Of a stretch of DNA of 64,000 nucleotides, positions 39,088 to 47,876 are shown one piece after another (the stretch's first letter is position 1; every line of letters begins with the position of its first letter). This stretch comes from Haladaptatus sp. QDMS2 (GTDB lineage: Archaea > Halobacteriota > Halobacteria > Halobacteriales > Halococcaceae). The notes under the pieces are model-generated. The model did no database searches, was not told the origin of the DNA, and worked only from the letters and a program-made list of their open reading frames with translations. Location of the stretch: positions 124,001 through 188,000 of the forward strand of contig NZ_CP119793.1 in assembly GCF_029338295.1 (NCBI RefSeq). The letters are read 5' to 3'. Both the position numbers and the translations under genes were made by a program.

Positions 39088-39453
39088 ATGCCCATCGACA
39101 TCGAGACGTTCGAATCCTCCCCCGAGGACCACCTCCAGCACTCCGGGGAGACGAACGCTGATCGCGTGATGCGATTCCTCGCTACCCATCCTGATCAGGC
39201 GTTCACGCAGAGCGAGATCCGCGATGCAACCGACGTCAAAGCCGGGAGCATCAGCGTCGTCCTCTCCCGACTCGAAGATCGAGGGCTCGTCCGGCACAAG
39301 GGCAACTACTGGGCGCTCGGTGAGGCCGACGACGTCGCCGCGTACACCAGCATGCTCGAGAGTACGCGAGCGGCCAACGACCGCTTCGGCGAGGAGGACA
39401 TGGACGAGTGGTTGGAGCACGCCGTCGACGACGAGGACGAGGCGACTGAATGA
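39088..39453 (+). CDS. Winged-helix antitoxin/regulator of a MazF-like pair
   Basis: A 121-residue protein. The winged helix is at about 25-75: RVMRFLATHPDQAFTQSEIRDATDVKAGSISVVLSRLEDRGLVRHKGNYW, MarR-like. The acidic C-terminal tail (FGEEDMDEWLEHAVDDEDEATE) could wrap the toxin. The toxin gene starts inside its stop (ATGA). Preceded by a TATA-like ATACATCTAATACATAC stretch near 39053-39069. Confidence 0.8.
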   Translation: MPIDIETFESSPEDHLQHSGETNADRVMRFLATHPDQAFTQSEIRDATDVKAGSISVVLSRLEDRGLVRHKGNYWALGEADDVAAYTSMLESTRAANDRFGEEDMDEWLEHAVDDEDEATE

Positions 39454-39740
39454 GCTACCAGCGCGGGGATGTCGTCTGGGGACCCGATCCGTTTAAGTCG
39501 GGTGAGAACCCGCGTCCGTGGCTGATCCTCAACAACGACAGCCATCCGTTCGGTGATGAGGAGTACATGACGGTCACGCTGACGACGACGCCCCACGACG
39601 AGGGGGTTCCCCTCGAAGACGGCGACTGGGTTGAGGGTGGGATGCCCAGGCAGAGTTACGCCTCGCCGTGGACAGTCGCGTCGCCGAAGCACGCTGCGAT
39701 CGTCCGGCGGCAGGGTCGAATCGACGAGCTGAAGACGTAA
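39450..39740 (+). CDS. PemK/MazF-like toxin
   Basis: A 96-residue protein: RGDVVWGPDPFKSGENPRPWLILNND at the start is the MazF/PemK signature (G-D-V-x-W ... RPxLIL), then EYMTVTLTTTPHDEG, and SYASPWTVASPKHAAIVRRQG. This family usually cleaves RNA. Overlaps the antitoxin gene by 4 bases. Complete and apparently intact. Confidence 0.85.
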   Translation: MSYQRGDVVWGPDPFKSGENPRPWLILNNDSHPFGDEEYMTVTLTTTPHDEGVPLEDGDWVEGGMPRQSYASPWTVASPKHAAIVRRQGRIDELKT

Positions 39741-39779
39741 TCTCGGACCCTCCAGCCGACACTCGATAGCGAGTGGCGT

Positions 39780-39907
39780 CTATGGAGTGAAACTCGCCTC
39801 AGCCCCAAACAGATTGAACGCATCGTGCTGCGAGAGGAAGTCCTGGGTGACCTACTCATCGCCCTCGTTGAGTTCGTTTTCAGTTACCCAATTTCCGTCA
39901 ACATACT
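39780..39907 (-). pseudogene. Orphan C-terminal fragment of the 340-residue protein (decayed)
   Basis: The minus strand reads ENELNEGDE, then an in-frame TAG (39852-39854), then VTQDFLSQHDAFNLFGAEASFTP and a stop. It matches the fragment at 40584-40946 (ENEFDEGDEWVTQGPFSQHDAFNLFGAEASFT), with Trp changed to a stop. It is the last and most decayed unit of the array. Confidence 0.75.
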
Positions 39908-40807
39908 GTAAATAACAGGAGTACTACGAGACAAATCACTGGAAAGAAATGGTTTCTACTGTCTTCAATTTTTTAAGATCCTATTGCATGAATAAAAACA
40001 CTCTCACTCTGTATCTATCGACATGAATACGACGCGACCACGCCACCCGGAGGACTGGGGTAGCTCGATACTTTGAGACCGACTAAGGTTTGATCGTCGC
40101 AATTGGCACTCGCCCACGCGAAGATTTCGCTCTTGTTAGTGGACACGACGACTACGAGGGCACCGTTTTGAGGGAAGTTCTTGATAGAACTCTGGTTTTC
40201 CTGGCCTGGTTCAAGTGTATACTGGCCTCGAAATTGAGCCGACTCCGTAAAGTCAATTTTTGTCACCGTACGCGGGCCTGTATCGTGGTTAGATAGCCCT
40301 TGATCGATTTCAGAATCAACAATCGTCCCGTCTCGATATTGGACCTTCATAGAAGCTGGGAGTTCAACAACGTAGACTTCGAATGTGTTGTTCACGTTCG
40401 CTGAATTGTTGACGACGAGTTTGACCGGCTGCTCTTGTTCAGTAGAACCACTGAACGGTGTGGTACAACCCGCTATGATGAAGAGAGTAACGAGGCAAAG
40501 TACTGGAAGAAAACGCAGAACGGACATATTCATTGTTATATTGTGGTGATTTTTACTACGTTCTCTATTCTCTTAATCCTAGTTCAGATTGGGGCTAGTG
40601 AGCCAGGAAACAACGGGTTCGATAATTGATTCCTGACAGCATCCGCGGTAGTCTGGGTTCCATCAAGCTCATAATCCATTACCGGATGGGGCCCAGACCC
40701 CGATCTAAATGCGGTCTTATAGCCCCACGATCCCAGCCTATCGAACGGCGTGTACAGAGTGAAACTCGCCTCAGCCCCAAACAGATTGAACGCATCGTGC
40801 TGCGAGA
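39785..40807. repeat. 51-bp exact direct repeat within array fragments
   Basis: The sequence starting GAGTGAAACTCGCCTCAGCC is identical for 51 bases at 39785-39835 and 40757-40807, with further similarity beyond. It lies in the C-terminal-fragment copies that follow the first and second lipoprotein genes, showing recent duplication, gene conversion or strong conservation. Confidence 0.85.
40015..40533 (-). CDS. Small secreted lipoprotein of the tandem array (copy 1)
   Basis: A 172-residue protein with a hydrophobic signal ending in FIIAGC (lipobox), then a beta-rich domain: VKLVVNNSANVNNTFEVYVVELPASM, GQYTLEPGQENQSSIKNFPQNGALVVVVS and a C-terminal SYSC. It is the most diverged and lowest-GC of three tandem homologs (others at 40972-41478 and 41736-42245). 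Cys after the lipobox and near the C-terminus (NCDD, YSC) may form a disulfide. Start at 40533 or two codons later. No known domain assigned. Confidence 0.8.
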   Translation of the reverse strand: MNMSVLRFLPVLCLVTLFIIAGCTTPFSGSTEQEQPVKLVVNNSANVNNTFEVYVVELPASMKVQYRDGTIVDSEIDQGLSNHDTGPRTVTKIDFTESAQFRGQYTLEPGQENQSSIKNFPQNGALVVVVSTNKSEIFAWASANCDDQTLVGLKVSSYPSPPGGVVASYSCR

Positions 40808-40946
40808 AGGGGCCTTGGGTGACCCACTCGTCGCCCTCGTCAAACTCGTTTTCGTCTCTCAAGATCCCGCCCACATTCAGCGTGTGAGCCGGATAGACGC
40901 TCGCGTCCCAGACTCGAACGAGCCGGGCGCCGTCGGCCAGTAGCAT
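40584..40946 (-). CDS. Orphan C-terminal domain related to the 340-residue protein
   Basis: A 120-residue open frame, VRVWDASVYPAHTLNVGGILRDENEFDEGDEWVTQ through RLGSWGYKTAFRSGSGPHPVMDYE to NPLFPGSLAPI. It aligns along its length with the end of the protein at 42310-43332 (VRVWDASRYPAHALYVGGLWRDE..., SLGYGDHFRSGHGDHPLLDF..., SKPLFPPLP). Similarity begins just after the stop of the upstream lipoprotein gene, so it is a cassette without its N-terminal part. It may be expressed from the lipoprotein transcript or be silent. Confidence 0.65.
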   Translation of the reverse strand: MLLADGARLVRVWDASVYPAHTLNVGGILRDENEFDEGDEWVTQGPFSQHDAFNLFGAEASFTLYTPFDRLGSWGYKTAFRSGSGPHPVMDYELDGTQTTADAVRNQLSNPLFPGSLAPI

Positions 40947-40971
40947 AACCCACGAGAGATACGCCGGGAGC

Positions 40972-41478
40972 TTAGAAGAGTCCGCCCTCACAGTTGTACG
41001 CCGATCCCGGCCCGTACTCGAACAGGGTGACGTCCAGGAAGACCAAATCACCGTCACAGTGAGCAGTCACATACGAGATGATTTCGGCCTCGTCCCGGGA
41101 GATGACGACAACCACGGCGAAGTCCGCGGGGAGTTCCTTGACGGAACTTCGGTTCTCCTCGCCGGGGGCGAGGGTGTACCGCCCGTGCAGCCGGGCCGAG
41201 TCGGGCAATTCAACCATCCTGAAGGTGTGATTATCGCCTGGATCATGTGCGCCTAGTCCCGGGCTAATGGGCCCCGTTGCAGTAAGCCCGTCATCACGTC
41301 GCTCCGTTACATTCGCTGGGAACTCAACGACCCAGACCTCGAAGGTGTGCGTCACGTTCGCCGAGTTGTTGACGACGACCGTGACGGGCCCCTCTTGCCC
41401 GGTCGGCCCGAATGGCCCAAGGGTGCAGCCCGTGAGGACGAGGAACACGCATACGCACAGGATTGGGAGAGGACGCAT
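40972..41478 (-). CDS. Small secreted lipoprotein of the tandem array (copy 2)
   Basis: A 168-residue protein with signal MRPLPILCVCVFLVLTGC (lipobox LTGC). The domain contains VTVVVNNSANVTHTFEVWVVEFPAN, ARLHGRYTLAPGEENRSSVKELPADFAVVVVISRD, HCDGDLVFLDVTLFEYGPGSAYNCEGGLF. It is close to copy 3 at both ends and differs mainly in the middle. Four or more Asn-X-Ser/Thr sites. The orphan C-terminal domain follows immediately. Confidence 0.85.
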   Translation of the reverse strand: MRPLPILCVCVFLVLTGCTLGPFGPTGQEGPVTVVVNNSANVTHTFEVWVVEFPANVTERRDDGLTATGPISPGLGAHDPGDNHTFRMVELPDSARLHGRYTLAPGEENRSSVKELPADFAVVVVISRDEAEIISYVTAHCDGDLVFLDVTLFEYGPGSAYNCEGGLF

Positions 41479-41538
41479 GAGAATATTACCTGTCGCTGTG
41501 GTTGGTGGGTGCTTCGTCGCGAAGTTGCTTAACCTGTG

Positions 41539-41727
41539 TCATGGAAGCGATGGGAAGAGGGGGTCCGATAATGTATTCTCGACAGTCAGGGCAGAGAGGA
41601 TCGCACCATTTTCATTATGGAACAACAGTGGATGGTCACCAAGCCCGCTGCGAAAGAGGTTCGCGTACCCCAACGACCCGAACGTGATGTGGGTGGCTGT
41701 GAATGGTGGTGAGATGAGGTTCATCAT
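41539..41727 (-). pseudogene. Short orphan C-terminal fragment of the 340-residue protein
   Basis: A 62-codon frame whose last 45 codons, ITFGSLGYANLFRSGLGDHPLLFHNENGAILSALTVENTLSDPLFPSLP, match the end of the protein at 42310-43332. The first part is unrelated. It lies 8 bases after the stop of lipoprotein copy 3. Too short to be functional alone. Confidence 0.7.
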
Positions 41728-41735
41728 CGAGTCAC

Positions 41736-42245
41736 TCAGAAGAGCCCTCCCTCACAGTTGTATGCCGATCCTGACCCGTACTCGAACATGATGACCTCCA
41801 CGAAGACCAGGTCACCGTCACAGTGAGCTGCCACCAGCTCCCGGACGCGGTCACCATCATAGATGACCACGACAACTGTAGACCCCGTCTCGAACTTCTC
41901 AATGGAACTCCGATTGAGGTTCCCCGGATCAAGAGTATACCGGTTGTGGAGCCTAGATCGGTTGGAGGGCAACTCGATGGATGTGACGAAGCCGTAATCA
42001 TCATCGAGCTTGTACGTGCTTAGTCCCGGGCCTGGTGACGCTCTATCGACCGTTCCATCTTTCTTCCGAATGCGGACCTCTTTATTGATTAATTCTCCCT
42101 CAACCACCCACACCTCGAACGTATGCGAGGTATTCGCCGAATTGTTCACGACGACTGTAACTGGCCCCTCTTGGCCAGTCGGGCCGAGGCTACAGCCTGC
42201 GAGCACGACGAGGACGCCCAAACACAGCAGCGAGAGGAGACGCAT
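41736..42245 (-). CDS. Small secreted lipoprotein of the tandem array (copy 3)
   Basis: A 169-residue protein. MRLLSLLCLGVLVVLAGC is the lipoprotein signal. The folded part has VTVVVNNSANTSHTFEVWVVEGELINKEVRIRKKDGTVDRASPGPGLSTYKLDDDYGFVTSIELPSNRSRLHNRYTLDPG (in part) and ends HCDGDLVFVEVIMFEYGSGSAYNCEGGLF, nearly identical to copy 2. The frame is open further upstream, but the lipobox context fixes the start at 42245. It lies 64 bases after the complete 340-residue gene, which would be its partner. Confidence 0.85.
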   Translation of the reverse strand: MRLLSLLCLGVLVVLAGCSLGPTGQEGPVTVVVNNSANTSHTFEVWVVEGELINKEVRIRKKDGTVDRASPGPGLSTYKLDDDYGFVTSIELPSNRSRLHNRYTLDPGNLNRSSIEKFETGSTVVVVIYDGDRVRELVAAHCDGDLVFVEVIMFEYGSGSAYNCEGGLF

Positions 42246-42309
42246 GTTTCTGCCTTTATTGACCTCCGTCTTTGTTACGGTCTTCATTCTACTCTCACGT
42301 ACTTGCATA

Positions 42310-43332
42310 TCATGGAAGCGGTGGGAAGAGGGGCTTCGAGAGTGTGCTCTCGAGTGTTTCGATCGACAATATCGTCCCAGGATCACTAAAGTCCAGTAGA
42401 GGATGGTCACCATGCCCGCTGCGAAAGTGGTCCCCGTACCCCAACGATCCGAACGTCTCGAAGGGTGTCCGCCCGAGCAAGCGGCTATCTAACACGAACT
42501 CCCCGAACGCCGTATCCTGCGTCACCGGCCCATCCCGCGTCCACTCGATCCCTTCCCGAAACGGCCGCTCGTCTCGCCAGAGCCCACCCACGTACAGCGC
42601 GTGGGCGGGATATCGACTTGCGTCCCAGACCCGGACGACCTTTGTCCCGTCGGCCATCACCACGACATCCAGGAACGCGTAAAACGACGGGATGTTTTGC
42701 CAAAACAGCAGTACCGCCAGCGGGATGTTCCCGGCGAACAGTTGGGCGAGCGTATACCCATCTTTCAAGGCGACGATGTAGGGGTCGTTGCCCCCGAGGA
42801 TGATCGAGGCACGCACTCCCTCGACGGTCCCGCCGCTGCCGTCCGGCACGGTCACGAGCTCGTCGGTCGTGTACGGCCCCTTCACGTTCGCGGGGAGGAA
42901 GTTATCGGCCCCATCCAGAGAATCCAAGATAGTGACGAAGAGGGTCGACTCGCCGGGACCACCCTCTCGCGTGATCGACGAGACCGAACTCGGGTTCTGC
43001 ATGCTCGGGTCGTCGTACAGCGCGTCGTACTCGCCATTGAGGACTGTCCGGCCGTCCGTGTCGAAGCCGATCTCGACAGCTGTGTTGATCCGGAAGTTCG
43101 GGAACGGGTCAGTGTACTCCTCGAGAGTTTTACTCCCAAGGGCGGTCGAGATAGTACTGGGCAAGCTCTGTCTGTCATCGCCGTGGAACCCCTCGTCCAG
43201 AAAGTCGGGGATGGCGCTGTTTCGTGCTGTCGCGGTGGGATCGTTGGGATCACCACTGTTCTCGTTATGTCCGAAGATGGACGTAACTACGTTCGCCTCC
43301 TCGGTGATATCCCAGGGTACTGGGAGGGTCAT
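42310..43332 (-). CDS. Unrecognised 340-residue protein, head of the cassette array
   Basis: Starts MTLPVPWDITEEANVVTSIFGHNENSGDP. It has no signal peptide. A hydrophobic stretch, IPLAVLLFWQNIPSFYAFLDVVVMADG (about 212-238), separates a 210-residue N-terminal part from the 100-residue C-terminal domain that recurs in the downstream fragments. No cysteines seen. The ATG overlaps the stop of the Tat-exported protein (ATGA), so the two are co-translated and probably interact; export by hitchhiking with the Tat partner is possible. No known family. Confidence 0.75.
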   Translation of the reverse strand: MTLPVPWDITEEANVVTSIFGHNENSGDPNDPTATARNSAIPDFLDEGFHGDDRQSLPSTISTALGSKTLEEYTDPFPNFRINTAVEIGFDTDGRTVLNGEYDALYDDPSMQNPSSVSSITREGGPGESTLFVTILDSLDGADNFLPANVKGPYTTDELVTVPDGSGGTVEGVRASIILGGNDPYIVALKDGYTLAQLFAGNIPLAVLLFWQNIPSFYAFLDVVVMADGTKVVRVWDASRYPAHALYVGGLWRDERPFREGIEWTRDGPVTQDTAFGEFVLDSRLLGRTPFETFGSLGYGDHFRSGHGDHPLLDFSDPGTILSIETLESTLSKPLFPPLP

Positions 43333-44852
43333 GGTGATCCCCCATGGAACCGGAAGGTCTCTCCATCGATCGTCACTTCGCAACTTTCATCTGCCAGAAT
43401 CTCCGCCTGATAGGGAACCTGGGTGCCGTCCTGATGATTGAACGTTCCCTCTCGAAGCGAATCGGTCTGCGTCTGGACGATTGTGTCCACACAGGGACCG
43501 TAGGTTCGCGCGAGCGCCCGGCGTTTCCGGGACATCCGCGTGACAGCGACATCATCCGGATTGTCGGTCAGGTGGACGTTATCAACGTAGACCACCCCGC
43601 TGTAGTCGAAGCCCGACCCCGGCGGGTAATCTTCTGGATACCACACGAGTTCCAGCTTGTCAGCCGAGGCGAGCTTCGTCGCACTCAATCCGCTCAGATC
43701 CCACGCGATTCGGCCGCCGAGCCGCTGTGCGACCGTCATCTCAGGAGATTCCTCGACACCACCCGGATCGGTGTGATGATACCGGAAGCGGAATGTGACC
43801 GCCGACTCCGAGTTCTCGACCGATGCTGGAAGCACATCGGCCAGCAAGCACGGATAGTTCACGAAGTCAGCCCGGTAGGTCGCCTGCTGGGTTTCGATGC
43901 TCGGCTCAGGGTCGCTATTAACGCTCACCTTGAGTGCATACTCACCCTGACTGACGCAAGCAGGCTGCTGGGCTCCACTTACTCGGCTACACTGATTCGT
44001 GCTGTTCGCCGTCCACCCATTTAGTCCGTGTTCGAATCTGCCGAGTGCCGTCGTCTTCACGAGCTTCCAGGTGTCATAGTACCGGTCGACGGAACTGGCC
44101 GCGGGCAGGAAATAGCCGAAGCCACCGCTCACCCAGGTCGTATCCGAGGCCGTAAGTTGCGCTGTTTGGGTCCCCGAACTATCGAAGTGCGTAATCGTGA
44201 ACGTACCGTCAAGCCCCCACTGGACCTCGATTCGGTTCCACCCGACGATCGAGAACGCCGCCGTCGAACTCGCGAGTTCTGTCCACTGAATTCCATCATG
44301 GACATAGAACCGGAATTGTCCCGCCGATTCGAGGCGAATCCGATACTGTTCGCTCTCTGGTTTGTCGTTGGCGTCTCCCTGTGCGCCGAAGATGACGAGG
44401 TGTTGATCCGTGTTCGCGGTATCTTGATAGAACCAGAACTCGAAGGTATCTCCCGCCTGAGGGGCCTGCGGAATCTGGGCCGGCATTGCAATCGCGTAAT
44501 CGGAGCCGCCATTCCCAGCCTTCGCCCGGAAGGCGTAGCCACCCGAGTGAGTGGGACTTTGCACCAGATCGAACGCAGTGCTGTCGTCAGTCGTGTATTC
44601 GGCGAGCGAGCCATCGTCGTAGTCGTCGATGACCGTGATTGCTGCGGCTGCAGGCTTCGATGTTGCTGCGAGGAGGGCACTCCCGCCTCCGATAAATCCT
44701 GCAGTGAAAACACCAGCTGTTTTTAAATAATGACGTCGCTTGAGCGGAAGCGGTTTTCCGCTTGTCAAGAGGGAAGGAGTCTCAGACCGATGTCCATCGG
44801 TGGATTCGGTTTTATCGGGTGTGTGGTCGGCCTGATTCTGCGAATTACCCAT
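43329..44852 (-). CDS. Tat-exported protein with LamG-like domain(s)
   Basis: A 507-residue protein. KRRHYLKTAGVFTAGFIGGGSALLAATSKPAAAA (about 38-71, in part) is a twin-arginine signal without a lipobox. Then VIDDYDDGSLAEYTTDD leads a jelly-roll lectin-like domain (FEFWFYQD, YRIRLESAGQFRFYVHDG, GWNRIEVQWGLDGTFTITHFD), and a second similar region from about 275 (GRFEHGLNGWTANSTN ... VYVDNVHLTD). Such folds bind sugars or cell surfaces. The C-terminus SCEVTIDGETFRFHGGSP overlaps the next gene. Probably the surface-targeting component of the array. Confidence 0.75.
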   Translation of the reverse strand: MGNSQNQADHTPDKTESTDGHRSETPSLLTSGKPLPLKRRHYLKTAGVFTAGFIGGGSALLAATSKPAAAAITVIDDYDDGSLAEYTTDDSTAFDLVQSPTHSGGYAFRAKAGNGGSDYAIAMPAQIPQAPQAGDTFEFWFYQDTANTDQHLVIFGAQGDANDKPESEQYRIRLESAGQFRFYVHDGIQWTELASSTAAFSIVGWNRIEVQWGLDGTFTITHFDSSGTQTAQLTASDTTWVSGGFGYFLPAASSVDRYYDTWKLVKTTALGRFEHGLNGWTANSTNQCSRVSGAQQPACVSQGEYALKVSVNSDPEPSIETQQATYRADFVNYPCLLADVLPASVENSESAVTFRFRYHHTDPGGVEESPEMTVAQRLGGRIAWDLSGLSATKLASADKLELVWYPEDYPPGSGFDYSGVVYVDNVHLTDNPDDVAVTRMSRKRRALARTYGPCVDTIVQTQTDSLREGTFNHQDGTQVPYQAEILADESCEVTIDGETFRFHGGSP

Positions 44853-46641: not shown

Positions 46642-47004
46642 TTAATCGATAGCTTCAGCCGCTGTGATGTTTTTCGGACCAATATAGATTAGCAGGCTCT
46701 CTGGCCCGGAATAGTCGAACGTGTGAGTAAGCTGCTTGCCTTCCGATCTCGCAGTAATGTTGTATACTCCATGCCCGCTGTTTAGGCTGACTTTCTTGTT
46801 TTCTCTTCCGTCGACAGTATAGGTGTCATCAGCGATTGTCGAGTTGTTTTTCGTGACGGTCAGTGAAACCTCTGTAGATTGGTTCTGTTCATTGTACAGA
46901 TATATTGTCGGGCCGGAAGGGTCATTGGATCCCCCGATACCGCCTATACAGCCCGCCAGTGAAACAGTACTAACCAGCAGCAAGCCGATTATGATTTTCT
47001 TCAT
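46642..47004 (-). CDS. Small secreted lipoprotein
   Basis: A 120-residue protein with a signal MKKIIIGLLLVSTVSLAGC (lipobox), a Gly/Ser linker and a beta-rich domain (PTIYLYNEQNQSTEVSLTVTKN, then VSLNSGHGVYNITARSEG). It is shorter than and not clearly homologous to the array lipoproteins at 40-42 kb, but shares the exported beta-domain plan. Unknown role; AT-rich surroundings. Confidence 0.75.
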   Translation of the reverse strand: MKKIIIGLLLVSTVSLAGCIGGIGGSNDPSGPTIYLYNEQNQSTEVSLTVTKNNSTIADDTYTVDGRENKKVSLNSGHGVYNITARSEGKQLTHTFDYSGPESLLIYIGPKNITAAEAID

Positions 47005-47076: not shown

Positions 47077-47442
47077 TCATGACATTCCGAGGTTATAGAC
47101 GACCTCTTGATTCACATCACCATACCGGTGGGTGAGGATATTCCGAAATCCGACTGCTTCTTCCAGCTGTTCCTGGACGTCGTGTGAGATAATATCTGCA
47201 TTCCCGAGCGACTCAATCTCCTTTTTTGCGGTCCCACTGGGTGAGAGCCCCTCCGACGCGCGAATATGCTGGGCGAGGTCGATACAGGACTGAATAAGAT
47301 TCATGAACGTCCGCTCAACCGCTCGCTGGACGATGATCTCGTCAACATACGCCGCCTTCGACAGTCCCCGCATTTGCTTCAGGTCATTCGTGTACTCGTT
47401 GATGTACCGGAGCTTGTCAACAACAATATCCTCGTCGACCAC
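47077..47442 (-). CDS. hepT: HepT-like HEPN RNase toxin
   Basis: A 121-residue HEPN-fold protein. The active motif R-x4-H-x-Y is seen as RNILTHRY near the C-terminus, with preceding helices KLRYINEYTNDLKQM and ERTFMNLIQSCIDLAQHIRASEG. In this family the Tyr is AMPylated by the partner MntA, blocking RNase activity. Starts at GTG, sharing a base with the mntA stop. Complete. Confidence 0.9.
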   Translation of the reverse strand: MVDEDIVVDKLRYINEYTNDLKQMRGLSKAAYVDEIIVQRAVERTFMNLIQSCIDLAQHIRASEGLSPSGTAKKEIESLGNADIISHDVQEQLEEAVGFRNILTHRYGDVNQEVVYNLGMS

Positions 47443-47876
47443 TAGACGTCACCACGAGCCAACCGATCGATGAATTCCCGTTGTTCTCGTTCTCGCTCGC
47501 TCGCACCTGCAGTATACGCTGCGTCGACGTGCTGTTTGTACGCGGTAATGACCGCTGGATCACCACTGATGCGAATCCCATCCCTGAGCGCAGCGTGCGC
47601 AACGTGCGTTGGCAGCAACTCGATATCGCTCACGTCGACGAATCTGTCTGCGTATGCTTGGAGGTCTGCGTCGATACGGTTGCGTCGGCGGAACCGCTCG
47701 GCTTCGGACAGGTCATCCGGGAACTGGAGGGCAATATCGACATCCGATGTCTCCTCTGCCGTTCCTTTCGCATGCGACCCAAACAGCACTGCGGAGATGA
47801 CCTCGGTTTCATCGAGATAGTCCCTGATTCCTTCGAGGTCGATTGTTTCGACAGCGAAGTCGTCCGGTTTGGGCAT
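47442..47876 (-). CDS. mntA: MntA-like nucleotidyltransferase antitoxin
   Basis: A 144-residue minimal nucleotidyltransferase. VISAVLFGSHAKGTAEETSDVDIALQF carries the GSx10DxD catalytic motif; a third acidic residue is supplied by FVDVSDIELL. It would transfer AMP to the Tyr in the HepT motif. It is the first gene of the pair and ends where HepT begins. All expected active-site residues are present, so the system looks functional. Confidence 0.9.
   Translation of the reverse strand: MPKPDDFAVETIDLEGIRDYLDETEVISAVLFGSHAKGTAEETSDVDIALQFPDDLSEAERFRRRNRIDADLQAYADRFVDVSDIELLPTHVAHAALRDGIRISGDPAVITAYKQHVDAAYTAGASEREREQREFIDRLARGDV

Follow-up and report, generated by a model that had tools for sequence, protein, structure and literature searches.

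In bacteria, the closest described counterparts of the element reported here are the orphan modules of contact-dependent growth inhibition (CDI) loci, cdiA-CT/cdiI, and those of Rhs loci, in which a full-length gene is followed by start-less C-terminal fragments, each with a small downstream gene (PMC3150448, 2011). Polymorphic toxin systems combine a secreted protein with an exchangeable C-terminus, an adjacent partner gene and downstream cassettes (PMC3482391, 2012). Makarova et al. 2019 predicted polymorphic toxin systems in archaea as well, as cited in PMC8416519 and PMC11566945. VARTIG, described in 2021, is a polymorphic-toxin-like hypervariable module in Thermococcales, and its authors found no close counterpart when they searched other archaea (PMC8416519). 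Furthermore, toxin-immunity pairs of haloarchaeal type VI secretion systems (T6SS) were tested and are functional in principle (PMC11566945). Here, we analyze a 64,000-nucleotide stretch of Haladaptatus sp. QDMS2 (NZ_CP119793.1, positions 124,001 to 188,000; hereafter the window). It carries an array composed of a protein A with a twin-arginine translocation (Tat) signal and LamG domain, a coupled 340-residue protein B, and lipoprotein genes that alternate with remnants of the C-terminal part (CT) of B. The CT and the lipoprotein encoded after it are exchanged as one cassette, and we lean towards reading the array as a polymorphic effector-immunity locus that works like the bacterial CDI/Rhs cassettes, with the external lipoprotein as immunity protein.

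The array has the layout described above in common with CDI and Rhs loci, and in both, the main gene is reloaded with a CT and partner from further downstream. As in CDI, a near-identical tract starts at a conserved motif, takes in the gene downstream and extends as far as the following CT (99% over 1048 nt in CDI, about 99% over about 1.05 kb here) (PMC3150448). However, the locus is archaeal and has a Tat carrier and a separate coupled protein instead of CdiA/CdiB, an external lipoprotein as partner, CTs of a single homologous family and remnants cut at varied points. It also has the general organization of polymorphic toxin systems, and its toxin-less tandem partner genes resemble homogeneous polyimmunity loci (PMC3482391), but no toxin or immunity family is recognizable in it and its CTs never change family. 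Given that all CTs are homologous to one another and that the searches revealed no toxin domain, we do not class the locus as a member of the polymorphic toxin systems. An earlier note, made from the sequence of the window, had proposed a polymorphic toxin/immunity layout, which is partly supported: CT and lipoprotein are exchanged jointly, as is the logic of such loci. VARTIG has the same archaeal hypervariable C-terminus and variable downstream genes, but consists of Ig-domain proteins of unrelated families and is confined to Thermococcales, and the haloarchaeal T6SS and related contractile pairs rely on contractile injection rather than on a Tat-linked pair (PMC11566945). In the light of these three precedents, the claim of the earlier note that no archaeal system of this kind was described is too strong. 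The literature searched, in which Makarova et al. 2019 is represented through its citations, contains no description of this particular A-B/lipoprotein family.

The array and its exchangeable cassette

The window is part of a contig of 331 kb in a genome of 3.88 Mb, and its nearest plasmid records are two Haladaptatus plasmids. All parts of the array are on the minus strand. Protein A (43329..44852, 507 residues) has a Tat signal, identified in its sequence by the twin-arginine motif KRRHYLK, a LamG jellyroll (Laminin_G_3, E=1.8e-6) and a carbohydrate-binding-like domain; its C-terminal ~240 residues are conserved across all A-B pairs. It is the presumed carrier of B (42310..43332, 340 residues), whose start codon overlaps the stop codon of A as ATGA and which is translationally coupled to it. 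B consists of a conserved N-terminal core and of an exchangeable CT (42313..42597, codons 246-340), the putative effector part. At their junction lies the conserved motif RVWDASRYPAHALYVGG (42583..42633, codons 234-250), site of the exchange breakpoints. Three lipoprotein genes alternate downstream with three CT remnants: lipoprotein 1 (41736..42245, 169 residues), CT1 (41539..41685), lipoprotein 2 (40972..41478, 168 residues), CT2 (40584..40970, start approximate, about 128 open codons), lipoprotein 3 (40015..40533, 172 residues) and CT3 (39767..39904, about 43 codons). The lipoboxes are LAGC, LTGC and IAGC, and identity to lipoprotein 1 is 57% for lipoprotein 2 and 38% for lipoprotein 3. The single-strand array, the lectin-like Tat protein, the ATGA coupling and the three divergent lipoproteins had all been noticed beforehand and are borne out. 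The CT copies had been given as 45, about 128 and 43 codons, the last with one nonsense codon; they do exist, but CT1 comprises the last 49 codons plus the stop (49 homologous codons within an open reading frame of 62 codons) and CT3 contains two in-frame stop codons. Chance likeness is excluded by the CT profile E-values (2.8e-9 for CT1, 3e-37 for CT2) and by the 80% DNA identity of CT3 to CT2 over 138 nt. The three lipoproteins of the window are all intact, whereas CT1 and CT3 are truncated or broken.

Haladaptatus strains YSMS36 and DYSN1 share this plasmid site with the window, and the three strains differ from one another at 6-9% of B residues 1-245. In DYSN1, this region is 94% identical to that of the window while the CT (246-340) is only 71% identical; the lipoprotein after B is also replaced (55% identity) and the flanks stay at about 95%. 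Conversely, the CT and the lipoprotein after B are both 99% identical between the window and YSMS36. They lie in a tract of about 1.05 kb (41553..42636, minus strand) that spans B codons 233-340, lipoprotein 1 and CT1, with ~99% identity inside flanks of ~92%. The switch points and the start of this tract all fall at the conserved motif, RVWDASxYPAHALYVGG. Furthermore, the DYSN1 CT is 74% identical to the orphan CT1 of the window, and its lipoprotein is 74% identical to lipoprotein 2, which follows CT1. Therefore, a cassette that is an orphan in one strain is loaded onto B in another. The recombining unit is a CT and the lipoprotein after it, rather than a lipoprotein and the CT after it: the tandem alternation described in the earlier note stands, but not its lipoprotein-then-CT order as unit of exchange. 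For lipoprotein 3, which groups with the lipoprotein of a locus in Haloarcula JP-L23, and for CT2, the nearest complete pair is in that same broken locus, whose B is the nearest complete relative of CT2 (60%). In JP-L23, an ISH3 transposase gene and frameshifts interrupt B, and the lipoprotein gene is intact 3 kb away. The A protein of YSMS36 (locus L114, 5887-8004) has 705 residues, with a second LamG stretch that is absent from the window and DYSN1, so that A, too, differs between strains in its N-terminal part.

The earlier note had suggested checking whether CT type and lipoprotein type co-vary, and they do. Over 13 cassettes, distances between CTs and between the adjacent lipoproteins are strongly correlated (Mantel r=0.91, p<=5e-5), related cassettes being non-independent points. 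The correlation persists in seven full loci when the B N-terminus is taken into account (partial Mantel r=0.87, exact p=0.0012). Pairwise ratios of nonsynonymous to synonymous substitutions (dN/dS, pairs with non-zero dS) are 0.13-0.22 for the B N-terminus, 0.16-0.36 for the B-CT and 0.18-0.36 for the lipoproteins; with averages of 0.13-0.36, positive selection was dropped as proof of an arms race. The idea that CT hypervariability is confined to lipoprotein-linked B proteins was also abandoned, the ratio of CT to N-terminal divergence being alike in both groups (medians 1.1 and 1.2).

The array could also be a neutral by-product, in which a lipoprotein gene of use in its own right was multiplied by tandem duplication that broke inside B and carried useless B tails along, later gene conversion mimicking linkage. 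This origin would account for the neighbouring repeats with 68-86% DNA identity, for CT remnants that begin at differing B residues (about 213, 260 and 292) with no common start signal and decay, and for a lipoprotein that is common as an orphan. However, the exchanges in DYSN1 and YSMS36 extend into the expressed, full-length B, with breakpoints at its conserved motif. CT1 and CT2 resemble B alleles from elsewhere more than the local one and are therefore not simple copies of it, and the partial Mantel result also argues against such an origin, which we consider improbable.

Export, domains and predicted structures

Most A proteins have a twin-arginine motif (partly assessed by eye), and none of 16 B proteins has one. 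As B lacks a signal of its own, A would carry it out of the cell through the Tat pathway. Presumed export with A would also suit a precursor-type halocin, with B or its CT cut off outside the cell as an antimicrobial, like HalH4 or HmHapP, and with the lipoprotein as immunity protein; haloarchaeal precursors activated by extracellular proteases do exist (PMC12893001). The lack of a signal peptide in B speaks against this proposal, as does the fact that no protease gene is seen beside the array, and we regard it as very unlikely.

B and the lipoproteins have no significant match in Pfam, NCBIfam, PADLOC or PHROGs, in agreement with the prior remark that no toxin domain could be recognized. A sequence search against solved structures gave nothing convincing apart from a weak match of the lipoprotein to Tako8 (E=0.003). 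The model of lipoprotein 2 is a beta-sandwich (predicted local distance difference test, pLDDT, of 86) that aligns best with the TssJ-type lipoprotein of Serratia (4a1r_C) with Z 8.5 and a root-mean-square deviation (rmsd) of 3.2 over 108 residues, tying with unrelated beta-sandwiches. Lipoprotein 3 scores 14.6 bits against the TssJ profile, below the cut-off of 31.6. No T6SS-like gene was recognized by eye near the array or the related loci, the neighbours not having been searched with T6SS profiles. The model of B is of moderate confidence (pLDDT 65.5, predicted TM-score 0.73). Its predicted fold is the same as that of BAS0735 of Bacillus anthracis (PDB 3c5p; Z 10.2, 177 residues, rmsd 3.8), but with 15% identity, and this protein offers no mechanism. 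Taken as models, these predicted structures point to no toxin identity.

Several candidate relatives were rejected. Domain 4 of cholesterol-dependent cytolysins matches the lipoprotein fold no better than other beta-sandwiches, and Zea, a secreted RNA-binding protein of Listeria (4k15), matches B with a Z of only 3.8. A viral origin was set aside, as no relative of B or of the lipoprotein is present in viral contigs and there is neither a PHROG match nor a convincing viral fold; so was a known defence system, for lack of a PADLOC match.

Distribution, partner genes and neighbours

Among 392 genomes from the order, 31 have B matches. Members of the lipoprotein family occur in 70 (E<=0.001), and in 29 of these the match is at about 1e-10 or better. 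The two families share nine genomes (of 31 and 29), which is above chance (p=1.2e-4), largely because some loci carry both. B begins within a few bases of the stop codon of A in most of 16 loci. In one of the three groups of the B tree, the small lipoprotein gene lies downstream in seven of eight loci. In a second, divergent clade (L036, L038, L039, L040, L123 and L127), a PQQ beta-propeller gene adjoins B in all six loci, on the same strand in five, and most copies have a lipobox (by eye); this propeller is a possible alternative partner of B.

The layout is not unique to the window. Halogeometricum limi carries an independent A-B-lipoprotein-CT-lipoprotein array, so that orphan CTs with their partners are seen downstream of the main gene in the window, in YSMS36 and in this species. 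CT remnants occur in other genera as well. At locus L037, a CT remnant precedes a single lipoprotein gene. Locus L035 has a deletion fusion of A and B followed by two lipoproteins. A CT remnant before every orphan lipoprotein was considered and rejected, since among B-less loci the unfiltered CT profile matched only at L037 (genome G108). At locus L109, compared with the corresponding locus of Halorussus aquaticus, flanks are 92-94% identical, but both A and B are missing and a frameshift disrupts the lipoprotein gene. Therefore, upkeep of the lipoprotein at this Halorussus site is tied to the A-B pair. Elsewhere, lipoprotein genes are often in tandem or alone, with no common neighbour. Such orphans, which have no neighbouring B, evolve under constraint (dN/dS of 0.14-0.24 for pairs with finite dS), which fits either collected immunity genes or an independent function. 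At loci L102, L103 and L111, the lipoprotein gene is followed within a few bases by that of a 302-residue putative lipoprotein with no Pfam match, possibly a different gene pair.

The main rival of the effector-immunity reading is a non-toxic recognition pair with the same matched interface, in which the A-B complex would be exported for adhesion or recognition and the lipoprotein would serve as its dock or receptor on the membrane. Co-variation of CT and lipoprotein would then stem from a single binding interface, possibly used to recognize kin or involved in an arms race against viruses. The carbohydrate-binding-like and LamG domains of A, the absence of toxin matches in the four databases and the decay of the lipoprotein once A-B is lost all suit such a pair, and co-variation suits any matched interface. 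However, a dock deprived of its ligand would be unneeded, yet B-less orphan and tandem lipoproteins are intact and constrained, and many A-B pairs manage without any lipoprotein. We give this explanation a minor, though real, chance.

Other genes flank the array. Upstream of A, a 120-residue lipoprotein (46642-47004, minus strand) has probable counterparts in YSMS36 and DYSN1 that bear a single accession, WP_276249191.1. This protein weakly matches the lipoprotein profile (E=1.6e-6), and the 120-residue lipoprotein could be distantly related to those of the array, though invariant. Further upstream, a nucleotidyltransferase and a DUF86/HEPN-like protein (47077-47876, minus strand) are probably an MNT-HEPN toxin-antitoxin module; both genes are annotated in DYSN1, and the nucleotidyltransferase in YSMS36. 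Convergent to the end of the array, a coupled pair (39088-39740, plus strand) encodes a 121-residue helix-turn-helix/MarR-like protein and a 96-residue protein resembling PemK/MazF. Similar duos are present on many haloarchaeal plasmids, and a PemK/MazF gene also lies near an orphan lipoprotein gene of YSMS36 (L118).

Proposed mechanism and biological meaning

In the effector-immunity reading, the C-terminal ~95 residues of B would be the specificity-bearing, toxic part of the effector exported with A. Anchored to the outside of the producer's membrane, the lipoprotein whose gene comes next would protect the producer and its kin from that CT type. The two are exchanged jointly at the conserved motif, in this reading by homologous recombination. 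Each exchange would load a new CT together with its lipoprotein, and old cassettes would accumulate downstream, their CT decaying and their lipoprotein staying intact. The layout of the array, the joint exchange and co-divergence of CT and lipoprotein and the decay of the lipoprotein at the Halorussus site are observed and favour this reading; further points in its favour are the array of Halogeometricum limi, the shared Haloarcula JP-L23 affinity of CT2 and lipoprotein 3, the intact lipoproteins of the window, the constraint on orphan lipoproteins and the different partner gene of the PQQ clade. Export of B with A, toxicity of the CT and neutralization by the lipoprotein are inferred.

Several observations weigh against this reading. 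The CTs found belong to one homologous family rather than to unrelated toxin families, the database searches found no toxin domain and the CT is modelled with low pLDDT. The strain-level comparison covers three plasmids, the Haloarcula arrays L025 and L035 keep no fixed CT-lipoprotein order, and average dN/dS stays under 1 for all the tested pairs of B-CTs and of lipoproteins. Moreover, the majority of the lipoprotein genes are orphans and may therefore have a job of their own. Finally, a large, mostly chromosomal clade of B, represented by 17 loci in the tree, lacks a lipoprotein gene next to B, which is awkward because a toxin would need immunity.

More tentatively, and at slightly less than even odds, the locus may represent a family of haloarchaeal effectors, linked to Tat and made of two proteins each, that exchange cassettes and are matched by an external lipoprotein as immunity protein. 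This would be a new archaeal polymorphic antagonism system, with an uncharacterized effector and a new immunity family, whose effector clades recruited different membrane-anchored partners (the small beta-sandwich or the PQQ propeller). Apart from halocins and one contractile system, little is known of how haloarchaeal strains antagonize one another or discriminate kin. The array displays the recombination signature of effector-immunity evolution in an unannotated family, within a group with good genetics, and provides natural allele pairs (the window/YSMS36 type and the DYSN1 type). It also suggests a possible function for haloarchaeal lipoproteins of a widespread family that lacks annotation.

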